Positions 18,640 to 40,736 of a stretch of 64,000 nucleotides of DNA are shown in pieces (the first letter of the stretch is position 1; every line of letters starts with the position of its first letter). Under the pieces are notes generated by a model. It saw only the letters and a list, made by a program, of their open reading frames with translations. It was not told the DNA's origin and ran no database searches. Made by a program: the position numbers and the translations under genes. The DNA comes from Streptomyces sp. NBC_00390 (GTDB lineage Bacteria > Actinomycetota > Actinomycetes > Streptomycetales > Streptomycetaceae), in assembly GCF_036057275.1 (NCBI RefSeq), contig NZ_CP107945.1:5580001-5644000 (forward strand). Direction: 5' to 3'.

Positions 18640-18656
18640 TCGGCCCGGAGGCACAG

Positions 18657-18720
18657 AAGGACCCCCCGCGAGTCGTTCCCCCAGAGCTGCGCCTGGGGGT
18701 GCCCCCACGCGGGGGTCCTT
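18657..18720. terminator. Nested-hairpin convergent terminator
   Basis: Outer arms AAGGACCCCCCGCG (18657-18670) and its near-perfect complement (18708-18720) enclose a second hairpin, CCCCCAG...CTGGGGG, of the family seen elsewhere in this window. It lies between the converging ends of the DsbA-fold gene (18639) and sodF (18784). The inner hairpin may be an insertion into a simpler terminator. Confidence 0.75.
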
Positions 18721-18783
18721 CCTCTTTCCGCCTGCCCGGTGAAGGCTGAGAAGACGATCACGAGCAGGACGACTGTGCCCCGG

Positions 18784-35299: not shown

Positions 35300-36583
35300 G
35301 TGGCACGCATCGGTGATGGCGGCGATCTGCTCAAGTGCTCGTTCTGCGGCAAGAGCCAGAAGCAGGTGAAGAAGCTCATCGCAGGGCCCGGTGTGTACAT
35401 CTGCGACGAGTGCATCGATCTCTGCAACGAGATCATCGAGGAGGAACTCGCCGAGACCTCCGAGGTGCGGTGGGAGGAACTCCCCAAGCCGCGCGAGATC
35501 TACGAGTTCCTCGAAGGCTATGTCGTCGGGCAGGAGCCCGCGAAGAAGGCCCTCTCGGTAGCGGTCTACAACCACTACAAGCGCGTCCAGGCCGGTGAGA
35601 ACGGCGGCGCGCAGGGCCGGGACGACGCGATCGAGCTCGCGAAGTCCAACATCCTGCTGCTGGGCCCCACGGGCTCCGGCAAGACGCTGCTGGCCCAGAC
35701 GCTCGCCCGCATGCTGAACGTCCCGTTCGCGATCGCGGACGCGACGGCGCTGACGGAGGCGGGCTATGTCGGCGAGGACGTCGAGAACATCCTGCTCAAG
35801 CTGATCCAGGCGGCCGACTACGACGTCAAGAAGGCCGAGACCGGGATCATCTACATCGACGAGATCGACAAGGTCGCCCGTAAGAGCGAGAACCCGTCGA
35901 TCACCCGGGACGTGTCGGGCGAGGGCGTCCAGCAGGCACTGCTGAAGATCCTGGAAGGCACCACGGCGTCGGTGCCCCCGCAGGGCGGTCGCAAGCACCC
36001 GCACCAGGAGTTCATCCAGATCGACACGACGAACGTGCTCTTCATCGTGGGCGGCGCGTTCGCCGGCCTGGAGAAGATCATCGAGTCGCGTGCGGGCGCC
36101 AAGGGCATCGGCTTCGGCGCCACGATCCGCTCCAAGCGCGAGATCGAGGCAAGCGACCAGTTCCAGGAGGTCATGCCGGAGGACCTGGTGAAGTTCGGGA
36201 TGATCCCGGAGTTCATCGGCCGTCTCCCGGTCATCACCTCGGTCCACAACCTGGACCGCGAGGCCCTCCTGAAGATCCTGGTCGAGCCGCGCAACGCACT
36301 GGTGAAGCAGTACCAGCGCCTGTTCGAACTCGACGGCGTGGAGCTGGACTTCGACCTCCCGGCCCTGGAGGCCATCGCCGACCAGGCGATCCTGCGCGGC
36401 ACAGGCGCGCGGGGCCTGCGGGCGATCATGGAAGAGGTCCTGATGTCGGTGATGTACGAGGTCCCGTCCCGTAAGGACGTGGCGCGCGTGGTCATCACGG
36501 AGGACGTGGTCCACAACAACGTGAACCCGACGCTGGTGCCGCGGATCGTGAAGGACGACGGCCGCCACGAGAAGAGCGCGTAG
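35300..36583 (+). CDS. clpX: ATP-dependent Clp protease ATP-binding subunit ClpX
   Basis: 427 residues. The unfoldase hands substrates to ClpP1P2. An N-terminal C4 zinc domain (CSFCGKSQ and CDECIDLC, residues 13-38) recognises substrates and adaptors. The AAA+ domain follows, with Walker A GPTGSGKT (about 119-126), Walker [11 protein letters not shown], sensor motifs, the IGF-type ClpP-docking loop IGFGAT, and the arginine-finger region. The start is a GTG with GAAGGGGAAG upstream, giving [16 protein letters not shown] as in relatives. It terminates at a strong bidirectional stem-loop. Confidence 0.98.
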
Positions 36584-36600
36584 CGCACAGGGCTCGAACG

Positions 36601-36648
36601 CGAAAGGGGCGCCCGGCCGGTTGAACAACCGGCCGGGCGCCCCTTTCG
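36601..36648. terminator. Strong convergent terminator after clpX
   Basis: 23-base perfect arms (36601-36623 and 36626-36648) around a 2-base gap, flanked by AAA and TTT, between the ends of clpX and the leftward membrane-protein gene. Confidence 0.92.
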
Positions 36649-36654
36649 TGCTCA

Positions 36655-37590
36655 CTACAGCTTGACGCGGACTTCCTTGCGGAGCTTGGCGGTGATGCTC
36701 GCGGCGTCGTCGGGCGACGTTCCCTTACCGGTCATCATGGAGGCCAGGTCGACCGGCATCACGAAGCCGAGGGTGCTGTGGTCCGCCCACATGCACACCG
36801 ACATGGTGAGCTCCTTGGGAGCGCCGGAGTTGGAGCTGCCGGGCTTGGTCTTGATCTGCTGGCACTTCAGCACGGCGCCCTCGAGCTCCTTGGGCTCGTA
36901 CGCCTGCGGGCTGCCCACCAGTTCGGCGTCGTCGTCCTTCTCCTTCTCGGACGACTCCTTCATGTCGGCGAACGCGGCGTCGATGGCTGCCTCGGGGTCC
37001 TCGATGTCGCCGTAGATGCCGCCGAAGGTGATCATCTTCGCGGCCAGCGGGTTCTCCTCGCTCCCCGACTTGTAAGCGGCCTCGACCTCCTTGGGGTTCT
37101 TGATGCCCATCTTCGCGGCGTCCTTGAGGAAGTCGTCGTCGGACGAGCTGCCACCGCTGCTGCTCGAGTCCTTCTTGTACTCGGTGAGCACGGTCTCCGG
37201 CGTGATGAGCTTGTGCGGGCCGTCGTCGGCGACGTCACTGCCACCGCCGCCGGCCGTGAGGAAGTACACGCCACCCGCGATCACCGCGAGCGCCACCACC
37301 GCGGAGGCCACGATCAGGCCCGTCTTCTTCTTCGGGGGCGCCGGCGGGGGCGGGACCTGGCCGTAGGGGGCCTGCTGGCCGTACTGGGGCTGCTGGCCGT
37401 ACGGGCCGGGCTGCTGGGGGTAGCCGTACCCCTGCGGCTGCTGCTGCGGCGGAACGCCCTGCGGAGCCTGCTGCGGGTACCCGTAGCCGGGCTGCGGGGC
37501 CTGCGGCTGCTGGCCGTAGGGACCCGGCTGGCCGTACGGGCCGGGCTGCTGAGGCTGACCGCCGTACGGGCCCGGCTGGTTGTAACTCAT
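36655..37590 (-). CDS. Pro/Gln/Gly-rich single-span membrane protein
   Basis: 311 residues, not a named family. Residues 1-105 are a low-complexity region of PGPYGQ/PQQ repeats (MSYNQPGPYGGQPQQPGPYG). A KKK stop-transfer and one membrane helix follow (about 108-130, TGLIVASAVVALAVIAGGVY), then an extracellular domain with two cysteines (LKCQQIKTKPG and MSVCMWADHST) that probably form a disulfide. The C-terminus is KLRKEVRVKL. It resembles mycobacterial and streptomycete surface proteins with cytosolic Pro-rich tails, sometimes linked to kinases; I infer no specific role. A truncated, decayed copy lies immediately upstream (37755-37994). Confidence 0.88.
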   Translation of the reverse strand: MSYNQPGPYGGQPQQPGPYGQPGPYGQQPQAPQPGYGYPQQAPQGVPPQQQPQGYGYPQQPGPYGQQPQYGQQAPYGQVPPPPAPPKKKTGLIVASAVVALAVIAGGVYFLTAGGGGSDVADDGPHKLITPETVLTEYKKDSSSSGGSSSDDDFLKDAAKMGIKNPKEVEAAYKSGSEENPLAAKMITFGGIYGDIEDPEAAIDAAFADMKESSEKEKDDDAELVGSPQAYEPKELEGAVLKCQQIKTKPGSSNSGAPKELTMSVCMWADHSTLGFVMPVDLASMMTGKGTSPDDAASITAKLRKEVRVKL

Positions 37591-37662
37591 TACGGGTGTT
37601 CCCCTCGTGATGTCTATGTGTTCCGAACATCCTGGCGCAACTGGCATGAGCATGGGGCGCCG

Positions 37663-38093
37663 GGGGTCACACCGTTACGCAGTTGCCCCGTTCAGTACGG
37701 CCCTGTGACACCGTCAGGGCCCGCGCCGGCGAACGGACCGGCCGCGTGCCGGAGTCAGAGCTTGACGCGGACGTCGTTGCGGAGCTTGGCGGCGACGCTC
37801 GCGGCGTCCTCCGGCGAGCCGGCCGTGCCCCCGAGCACCGCGGCCGCGCTGACAGGCAGCACCGCCTCCTGTGACGGCTGGCCGTAACCGGGATGCGGGG
37901 CCTGCGGCGGTTGGCCGTACGGGCCAGGCTGCCCGTGCGGTCCGGACTGCTGCGGTTGCTGCCCGGCGTACGGGCCTGGGTGGTTGTGGCTCAGTGATGT
38001 TTACGTGTCCCCGACATCGTGACCCAGCCCAGAGCCTGCAGGGCGGGGCGGGGTCACACCGGTGCGCGGGATTCCCGTTTCAGTACGGCCCTG
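37663..38093. repeat. Duplicated promoter-flank sequence
   Basis: GGGTCACACCG (37663 and 38051) and TTCAGTACGGCCCTG (37691 and 38079) recur with exactly the same 388-base offset. This shows that the region upstream of the membrane-protein gene was duplicated along with the gene. The right copy contains the -35 of the valS promoter; the left copy has lost the -10. Confidence 0.75.
37755..37994 (-). pseudogene. Decayed tandem copy of the Pro/Gln-rich membrane protein gene
   Basis: An open frame of 79 codons encodes the beginning and the end of the neighbouring gene's product with the middle missing: SHNHPGPYAGQQPQQSGPHG and following (matching SYNQPGPYGG), then directly VLPVSAAAVLGGTAGSPEDA and KLRNDVRVKL before the stop, matching VMPVDLASMMTGKGTSPDDA and KLRKEVRVKL. 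The membrane helix and most of the outer domain (about 230 residues) are deleted in frame. The start codon ATG has become CTG and the ribosome site is poor. The flanking upstream sequence is duplicated too, so this is a remnant of a tandem duplication. Confidence 0.85.
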
Positions 38094-38108
38094 GGACACC
38101 TCTAAACT
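38079..38108 (+). promoter_or_regulatory. valS promoter (TTCAGT-18-TAAACT), leaderless
   Basis: TAAACT ends six bases before the valS GTG, with TTCAGT 18 bases upstream. Transcription should start at or next to the GTG, and there is no ribosome site and no room for a T-box leader. Confidence 0.6.
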
Positions 38109-38114
38109 GACCCC

Positions 38115-40736
38115 GTGACCGAGAACACTCAGCAGCAGACCGCCAGTAACCCCGAACTGCCGACCCAGTACGCGCCGGCCGAGGTAGAGGGGAAGCTGTA
38201 CGAGCGCTGGGTAGAGCGCGGGTACTTCGAGGCGGACTCGAAGAGCGAGAAGCCGCCGTACACCGTCGTCATCCCGCCGCCGAACGTCACGGGCAGCCTG
38301 CACCTGGGCCACGCCTTCGAGCACACACTGATCGATGCCCTCACCCGCCGCAAGCGCATGCAGGGCTACGAGACGCTGTGGCAGCCGGGCATGGACCATG
38401 CGGGTATCGCGACTCAGAACGTCGTCGAGCGCGAGCTCGGTAAGGAGGGCAAGTCCCGCCACGATCTGGGGCGTGAGGCTTTCGTCGACCGTGTCTGGCA
38501 GTGGAAGGCCGAGTCCGGCGGGCAGATCTCCGGTCAGATGCGCCGCCTCGGTGACGGTGTCGCCTGGTCGCGTGAGCGCTTCACCATGGACGAAGGGCTG
38601 TCCAAGGCTGTCCAGACGATCTTCAAGAAGCTGTACGACGACGAGCTGATCTACCGCGCCGAGCGCATCATCAACTGGTGCCCCCGGTGTCTGACGGCCA
38701 TCTCGGACATCGAGGTCGAGTACCAGGACGACGACGGCGAGCTCGTCTCCATGAAGTACGGCGACGGCGACGACACCATCGTCGTCGCCACAACGCGCGC
38801 CGAGACCATGCTCGGTGACACCGCGGTCGCCGTCCACCCGGACGACGAGCGCTACGCCCACCTGGTCGGCAAGCAGATCAAGCTGCCGCTCACCGACCGC
38901 ACGATTCCGGTCGTCGCCGACACGCACGTCGACCCGGAGTTCGGCACGGGTGCCGTCAAGGTAACGCCCGCGCACGACCCGAATGACTTCGAGATCGGCC
39001 AGCGTCACAACCTGCCGGCCATCGCCATCATGGACGAGCACGCGATCATCACAGCGCACGGACCGTTCCAGGGCCTGGACCGACTGGAGGCGCGCAGCGC
39101 CATCGTCGGCGCGCTGCGTGCCGAGGGCCGGATCGTCGCGGAGAAGCGTCCGTACCTCCACTCCGTCGGGCACTGCTCCCGCTGCAAGACCACCATCGAG
39201 CCGCGTCTGTCGATGCAGTGGTGGGTCAAGGTCGGCCCGCTCGCGAAGGCCGCCGGTGACGCCGTCCGCGACGGACGGGTCAAGATCCACCCGCAGGAGA
39301 TGGAGAAGCGGTACTTCGACTGGGTCGACAACCTCCATGACTGGTGCATCTCGCGCCAGCTGTGGTGGGGCCACCGCATCCCTGTTTGGTACGGCCCCAA
39401 CGGCGAGATCGTCTGCGTCGGACCGGACGACGAGGCACCCACCGGCGAGGGCTGGACCCAGGAGACCGATGTCCTGGACACCTGGTTCTCCTCCGGTCTG
39501 TGGCCTTTCTCGACGCTGGGCTGGCCCGAGCGGACCGAGAGTCTCGCGAAGTTCTACCCGAACTCGGTCCTGGTCACGGGCTACGACATCCTCTTCTTCT
39601 GGGTCGCCCGGATGATGATGTTCGGCCTGTACGCGATGGACGGCACCCCGCCGTTCCACACCATCGCCCTGCACGGCATGGTCCGCGACCAGTTCGGCAA
39701 GAAGATGTCGAAGTCCTTCGGCAATGCGGTCAACCCGCTGGACTGGATGGACAAGTACGGCTCCGACGCCCTGCGCTTCACGCTGGCCCGCGGTGCCAAC
39801 CCGGGGGTTGATGTCCCGATCGGCGAGGACTGGGTCCAGGGTTCCCGCAACTTCGCCAACAAGATCTGGAACGCCACCCGCTTCGCCCTGATGAACGGCG
39901 CGACGGTCGACGGTGAACTGCCGCCCGTCGAGCAGCTGTCGGCGACGGATCGCTGGATCCTGTCCCGGCTGAACAAGACGGTCGCCGAGGTCGACGCGAA
40001 CTACGAGGACTATCAGTTCGCGAAGCTGTCCGAGGCTCTCTTCCACTTCGCGTGGGACGAGGTCTTCGACTGGTACGTCGAACTGTCGAAGACCACGTTC
40101 TTCGAGGGCGGCGAGCAGGCACGGGTCTCCGGCCGGGTCCTCGGTGAGGTCCTGGACGTGATGCTCCGGCTGCTCCACCCCGTCGTCCCGTTCGTCACCG
40201 ACACTCTGTGGACGACCCTGACCGGCGGCGAGTCCCTCGTCATTGCCGACTGGCCGAACGACAGCGGGTTCCGCGACGAGGCCGCCGAGCAGGAGATCGC
40301 CCTCGTCCAGCGGGTGGTCACCGAGGTCCGCCGGTTCCGTTCCGACCAGGGGCTGCAGCCGGGCCAGAAGGTCCCGGCCCGCCTCACCCTGGACGGCACC
40401 GCGCTCGCGCCGCACGAGGCCGCGATCCGGCAGCTGCTCCGGCTGCAGCCGGAGGGTGAGGACTTCAGCGCGACGGCGACTCTTCCGGTCGCCGGTGCCA
40501 CCGTCGCTCTGGACCTGTCCGGCACGATCGACGTCGAGGCCGAGCGCAAGCGCCTCACGAAGGATCTGGCCAACGCCGAGAAGGAGCGGGCGCAGGCGAC
40601 CGGCAAGCTCGGCAACGAGGCGTTCCTCGCCAAGGCCCCGGACAACGTGGTCGACAAGATCCGGACCCGGCTCGCCAAGGCCGACGAGGACATCGCGCGG
40701 ATCACCCAGCAGCTCGAGGCCCTGCCCAAGGGCTGA
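38115..40736 (+). CDS. valS: Valyl-tRNA synthetase
   Basis: 873 residues. It charges tRNA-Val with valine and edits misactivated threonine. The class I signatures are [18 protein letters not shown] (HIGH motif, about residues 57-74) and [11 protein letters not shown] (KMSKS). The CP1 editing domain includes [17 protein letters not shown], and WCPRC and CSRC form zinc-knuckle-like pairs. The C-terminal coiled coil (about 805-873, [20 protein letters not shown]) is typical of ValRS. The GTG start directly follows a -10 box, so the mRNA is probably leaderless. The gene is divergent from the decayed membrane-protein copy. Confidence 0.98.

Follow-up and report, generated by a model that had tools for sequence, protein, structure and literature searches.

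The interval between clpX and valS in Streptomyces sp. NBC_00390 (genome size, 8.69 Mb) very probably carries a tandem duplication of a gene together with its promoter unit, in which the right copy of the gene is dead and the right repeat of the promoter has been kept as the promoter of valS. Within the window (the whole stretch of DNA analysed, 64,000 nt), the interval is bounded on the left by clpX (35300 to 36583, forward strand; Pfam matches to zf-C4_ClpX and AAA_2) and on the right by valS, encoding valyl-tRNA synthetase (38115 to 40736, forward strand; Pfam matches to tRNA-synt_1, Anticodon_1 and Val_tRNA-synt_C). A terminator-like hairpin (36596 to 36653; an inverted repeat with 28-nt arms, 93% complementary) separates clpX from the intact left copy of the gene, an open reading frame of 311 codons on the reverse strand (36655 to 37590) that matches positions 1 to 316 of a profile built from 100 single-copy relatives (448 bits). 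Its product has a Pro/Gln/Gly/Tyr-rich N-terminus, one membrane helix and an extracytoplasmic domain of ∼200 aa with two conserved cysteines (C243 and C266, both invariant alignment columns). To the right of this gene lie the left repeat of the divergent promoter region shared by the gene and valS (37591 to 37712), which retains the gene's own elements and stops just short of the valS −10; a junction segment (37713 to 37754); a 79-codon remnant of a second copy on the reverse strand (37755 to 37994, with CTG at its 5′ end and TGA as its stop); and the right promoter region (37995 to 38114), in which the conserved columns are preserved toward valS but have decayed toward the gene.

Under the explanation we favor, the gene and its divergent promoter region, probably with part of the terminator, would have been duplicated as one unit in tandem between clpX and valS, and the left copy would have remained the working gene. 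The right copy would have died through two deletions: one of 17 nt took its Shine-Dalgarno sequence and part of its start codon, the other, of ∼230 codons, its membrane segment and most of its extracytoplasmic domain. The right repeat would have retained its outer half, next to valS, with the gene-side half decaying; it would be held in place because that outer half is the valS promoter. The left repeat, stopping before the valS −10, would serve the intact gene. The repeats, the two deletions, the unusual N-terminus of the remnant and the split retention of the promoter can all be read from the DNA itself; the roles given to the individual promoter elements of valS and of the gene are putative.

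The repeats cover both ends of the gene and the non-coding sequence upstream of it. The tail of the intact gene recurs in the remnant (36659 to 36762 versus 37759 to 37862, 74% identity over 104 nt), as does its N-terminal part (37467 to 37557 versus 37868 to 37958, 79% over 91 nt), and upstream of these there are two further blocks (37663 to 37692 versus 38050 to 38079, 77%; 37686 to 37712 versus 38074 to 38100, 89%). When the spacer upstream of the left gene was aligned to the valS-proximal promoter, it scored 42.8, against a maximum of 13.8 over 200 shuffles. In a profile search the remnant matched positions 1 to 43 and 283 to 316 in one open frame; with the DNA repeats, this establishes its homology to the intact gene over the retained parts, namely the first ∼42 and the last 35 to 37 codons. 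The initial annotation, which read the locus as a tandem duplication with one decayed copy that kept the two ends of the gene and lost the middle in frame, is thus borne out by collinear coding and non-coding repeats, two deletions and the single copy typical of relatives. Some of its particulars need amendment: the two upstream blocks are real, with offsets of 387 and 388 nt rather than an identical 388, and the span it gave (37663 to 38093) takes in the remnant and two promoter blocks but excludes the intact copy.

The start of the remnant also had a different cause from the one first proposed. Alignment to the left copy and to relatives showed that the right copy lacks a counterpart of 37590 to 37606, a 17-nt deletion whose scar lies at 37993 to 37994 (junction 37993/37994). 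It took one base of the ATG start codon and the putative Shine-Dalgarno sequence, which the alignment places at 37600 to 37606 in the left copy (gagggga, reverse strand) and which is absent from the right copy. The CTG had been seen correctly, but it is a deletion scar and not an ATG-to-CTG substitution. Beyond the remnant's stop, the 42 nt of the junction segment bear a weak likeness to half of the terminator between clpX and the gene (4 of 1,000 shuffles were as good, in a single comparison), which fits tandem duplication of the whole unit.

The two promoter repeats retain opposite halves of a conserved region. In the spacer between the gene and valS, 94 columns were conserved in ≥80% of 91 relatives, 64 of them on the gene side and 30 on the valS side. 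The right repeat matched 29/30 valS-side and 40/64 gene-side columns, the left repeat 15/30 and 59/64, respectively. None of the 91 relatives reached the 24 gene-side mismatches of the right repeat (maximum, 14), and none was as decayed when the deleted columns were excluded (12 of 52 differ); the 15 valS-side mismatches of the left repeat were reached by one relative. Inside the repeat, the left copy retains 15 of 16 valS-side columns, and the valS elements are missing only past the repeat end, which points to a breakpoint rather than progressive decay as the origin of its lost half. Duplication-degeneration-complementation describes the complementary degeneration of duplicated regulatory regions, and retention of opposite halves by two repeats of one divergent promoter resembles it; the difference is that the missing half of the left repeat coincides with the repeat end, so the valS half may never have been copied there. 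By parting the halves of a conserved divergent promoter, the duplication suggests which elements serve valS and which serve its neighbor.

It had been proposed that the right copy supplies the valS −35, and the near-complete retention of valS-side columns agrees with this and extends it to the −10. The presumed −35 region is a conserved GTTTC block (38077 to 38081, forward strand), assigned from its conservation, and the presumed −10 is TAAACT (38103 to 38108, forward strand), ending 6 nt before the valS GTG. Passages of PMC8079986 give the Streptomyces −10 as TAnnnT, lying 4 to 9 nt from the start site, and passages of PMC4895711 and PMC8079986 put leaderless mRNAs in Streptomyces at 17 to 21%. 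Given this motif and spacing, the valS mRNA is probably leaderless. A generic promoter scan returned no sigma-70 match, and no −35/−10 pair was recognized for the gene's own promoter.

The clpX-valS interval was compared in 140 genomes, including those of the host and of Streptomyces guryensis, whose valS nests within the host's genus in a valS tree (repeats L149 to L151 were dropped). Copies were counted in 61 genomes chosen before their loci had been seen (a valS-only draw of 392 had left 62 unscored, and G549 is missing). In this check, which the initial annotation had proposed, a single copy proved usual (51 of 61); two were found in five genomes, three in four and none in one, so that 9 of 61 have two or three. 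The single count for G563 is a floor, as its contig ends before clpX; the second “copy” in G196 is two frames of one gene, and in G553 and G567 the match to the profile is partial for some array members. The distance from valS to the start codon is 135 to 140 nt in 91 of 100 clean single-copy loci; in the host it is the remnant (120 nt from valS), not the intact gene, that sits near this position. Throughout the genus this locus often shows tandem copies and changes of C-terminal type, a feature absent from the initial annotation.

Arrays of two or three copies include L164 (G543), L183 (G553), L186 (G570), L189 (G567), L157 (G562), L156 (G587), L153 (G581), L161 (G564) and L188 (G551). In G562 and G587 the second copy starts 37 nt past the stop of the first, an operon-like arrangement. 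In G543, G567 and G581 the promoter-like score of inner array spacers was above every one of 200 shuffles, in G587 just barely, but in no other array did it exceed them by as much as in the host (the spacer of G027 was left out of the scoring, its overlapping frames having been merged). Locus L012 (G333) has a C-terminal-only fragment (profile positions 232 to 317) behind an intact gene, and there the remnant occupies the opposite end of the array. In L177 (G561), the 1,011-nt clpX-valS interval yielded no copy of the gene.

Whether the duplication was recent is a separate matter. It is conceivable, at well under even chances, that what survives in the remnant is an older, resident copy and that the left gene came in by recombination or represents a different paralogue within an ancestral array, with no recent duplication. 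This alternative is compatible with the tandem duplication, which may be old or recent. Over the N-terminus, the remnant is 79.7% identical to the left copy (rank 106 of 147) and up to 86.9% identical to genes of other genomes; 105 other copies are nearer to it than the left copy is, which would be unexpected from a recent duplication, but the long branch of the remnant makes such distances unreliable. Arrays of two or three unlike copies exist, and the valS sisters G129, G174, G431 and G447 have a C-terminal type other than that of the left copy. Against an older resident copy, the tail of the remnant groups with those of genes of the left copy's type. It is most similar to the tail of G267 (83/111, versus 78/111 for the left copy), and the ending −VRVKL is common to the remnant tail, the left copy, G267, G004 and G030. 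The spacer letters common to both promoter repeats are absent from G030 and G157, although G431, G447 and G006 have most of them. Trees of 29 chosen genes of the left copy's type, built from short segments and with a long remnant branch, were compatible with a sister relationship of remnant and left copy (pAU = 0.38 for the N-terminus, 0.61 for the tail and 0.47 for both).

The initial annotation also raised the possibility that the remnant had been kept as a short peptide. That the 79-codon frame is a real small gene, selected as a short secreted or regulatory peptide, is very improbable. The frame is open, both deletions are in frame and the tail residues are normal for the family, but stops are rare at this G+C and the remnant's translation signals are lost: the Shine-Dalgarno sequence and the start are deleted, leaving CTG, and an in-frame TAA stands three codons upstream of it. 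No ATG, GTG or TTG occurs before codon 45, and the sole in-frame starts are GTG45 and GTG53. The product would have neither the membrane segment nor either conserved cysteine.

Constraint on the N-terminal part appears to have weakened. It contains seven residues that are present in ≤1% of other copies (mean of 0.45 and maximum of 7 over 143 copies) and is changed at 6 of 32 conserved columns (mean of 0.73 and maximum of 9 over 143 copies). Non-synonymous differences number 8 to 12 against nine compared genes, versus 1 for the left copy against each of the eight compared genes other than itself, and the maximum-likelihood branch length is 0.59 for the remnant and 0.028 for the left copy. Six of the 143 other copies had an N-terminus score below that of the remnant, and its median pN/pS against other copies is 0.28 (0.16 over all pairs), well under 1, which suggests that constraint has been lost only in part or only lately. 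The tail, which ranks 57th from the bottom among 144, has no rare residues and is free of residue-level decay; tails evolve fast in all copies (median pN/pS of 1.13 over pairs), so its normal appearance says little.

A conserved 79-codon gene in relatives would have spoken for a real small gene, and no such counterpart was seen among the matches listed when remnant-spanning queries were run against 566 other genomes of the genus. These searches gave the best ∼150 matches per table, in which a shared remnant would rank first, and the nearest of the searched genomes by valS are 90 to 91% identical. Among genomes of named species, from which the records closest to the host may be absent, the remnant peptide found only an ordinary full gene in Streptomyces guryensis. 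The upstream TAA, the lack of an early start, the apparently relaxed N-terminus and the absence of a counterpart from the listed matches together make retention of a 79-residue peptide unlikely, and we infer that the remnant is untranslated. Least credible of all, with a probability close to nil, is that low-complexity, Pro/Gln/Gly-rich coding sequence produced the similarity by chance: the N-terminal repeat is indeed of low complexity and resembles other stretches of the genome, but the tail and the non-coding promoter blocks are not of this kind, their order and spacing are right, the promoter score lies far beyond its shuffles, and the collinear non-coding repeats refute it.

Taken alone, the remnant is an ordinary tandem pseudogene of the birth-and-death type: one copy is intact, the other is truncated and has lost its start and ribosome site, constraint seems weakened, and copy number varies between relatives. 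It differs from such pseudogenes in that the dead copy sits on a divergent promoter still used by an essential neighbor, and thus the locus cannot simply be deleted whole. A literature search by title and abstract start (valS, clpX and leaderless; tandem paralogues; divergent promoter duplication) returned nothing on the clpX-valS locus, and no paper was found on SCO2616, which we take to be the Streptomyces coelicolor gene at this position.

In the AlphaFold2 model of the intact protein (mean pLDDT of 69.4), the membrane helix is followed by an alpha/beta domain that is modeled for the most part with confidence, and the N-terminus has low confidence and is presumably disordered. A Foldseek search with this model gave no match at E ≤ 0.001. 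In VIA-align the predicted domain scored Z = 9.4 against PknH, 7.8 against Apa, 7.6 against DcrB, 7.5 against LpqN, 7.4 against cyanobacterial PsbP and 7.3 against Mog1, where values of <8 are weak by the tool's own note; rmsd to PknH, Apa and LpqN was 4.3 to 4.5 Å. We take these six to be a coherent set of one fold type, and the extracytoplasmic domain is accordingly predicted to have a PknH/Apa/LpqN-like (Mog1/PsbP-like) fold, as in the PknH extracellular domain and other actinobacterial surface proteins. The likeness is one of modeled structure: the intact copy's protein matched no Pfam family and no PDB sequence. Among 24 other family members, Pfam returned only isolated weak matches to other families (best E = 0.0044); NCBIfam matches were likewise weak and to other families (best E = 0.00099). 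On the model, all that the remnant keeps of the domain is the final helices and the end of the last strand; with most of the domain and both cysteines missing, it should be unable to form this domain.

Relatives differ strongly in this outer domain, which evolves fast behind a conserved N-terminus. A FastTree phylogeny of 147 domains gave three large clades (60, 47 and 32 rows; local support of 98, 97 and 91), so that at least three deep types can be told apart; eight copies of no main type were excluded from type counts. Mapped on the valS tree, 120 single-copy genomes require at least 38 changes of type, whereas 200 shuffles gave 55 on average and 48 at the fewest, so that domain type tracks kinship, but loosely. 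Type differed in 21 of 83 pairs with valS ≥95% identical (G571 was dropped from this comparison). Median identity in these 21 pairs was 0.60 for the domain, versus 0.90 for the N-terminal part, 0.86 for the membrane segment and 0.95 for clpX. In the 62 same-type pairs the domain median was 0.81, and 17 pairs fell below 0.75, which suggests that the domain changes fast within types too. The clearest pair is G317/G290 (L073/L076; valS 0.98, membrane segment 1.00, domain 0.58). Type switches at 97 to 98% valS identity were also seen in L092/L122 (G309/G546) and L146/L162 (G464/G559). For the most part such switches leave the promoter, the N-terminus and the membrane segment similar; in G098/G041, an exception, the N-terminus (0.76 to 0.78) and the membrane segment (0.61) changed as well (two rows of G000 in this pair-by-pair comparison were not used, as they compared the remnant and not the left copy). 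Different types stand side by side in the arrays of G350, G543 and G564, which offers a route to type change through duplication, divergence and loss; import of domains from other strains may also play a part.

We suggest, tentatively and as an idea that could well prove wrong, that the clpX-valS interval is a domain-switching site, at which the divergent promoter, the Pro/Gln-rich N-terminus and the membrane segment stay fixed while one version after another of a sensor-like extracytoplasmic domain is attached to them, either by tandem duplication with subsequent loss between the copies or by recombination between strains. The remnant may then be a fossil of this birth-and-death process, a promoter-proximal copy that was gutted rather than excised cleanly and left an essential promoter stuck to a dead gene. 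If so, the locus would be a place to study how Streptomyces cell-surface proteins diversify, and it is the domain switching surrounding the remnant that merits further work.

At least 9 of 30 long or multi-copy loci (L152, L155, L160, L163, L168, L102, L041, L175 and L017) contain small frames on the clpX or the valS side of the gene; these begin with a signal-peptide-like sequence and include a stretch resembling C..Y..(K)GY.VGPKV..AC. An Rfam scan gave no match near the clpX-valS locus; elsewhere in the window it gave a match to the sodF sRNA family at 18656 to 18772 on the reverse strand (69.9 bits; gathering score, 46).
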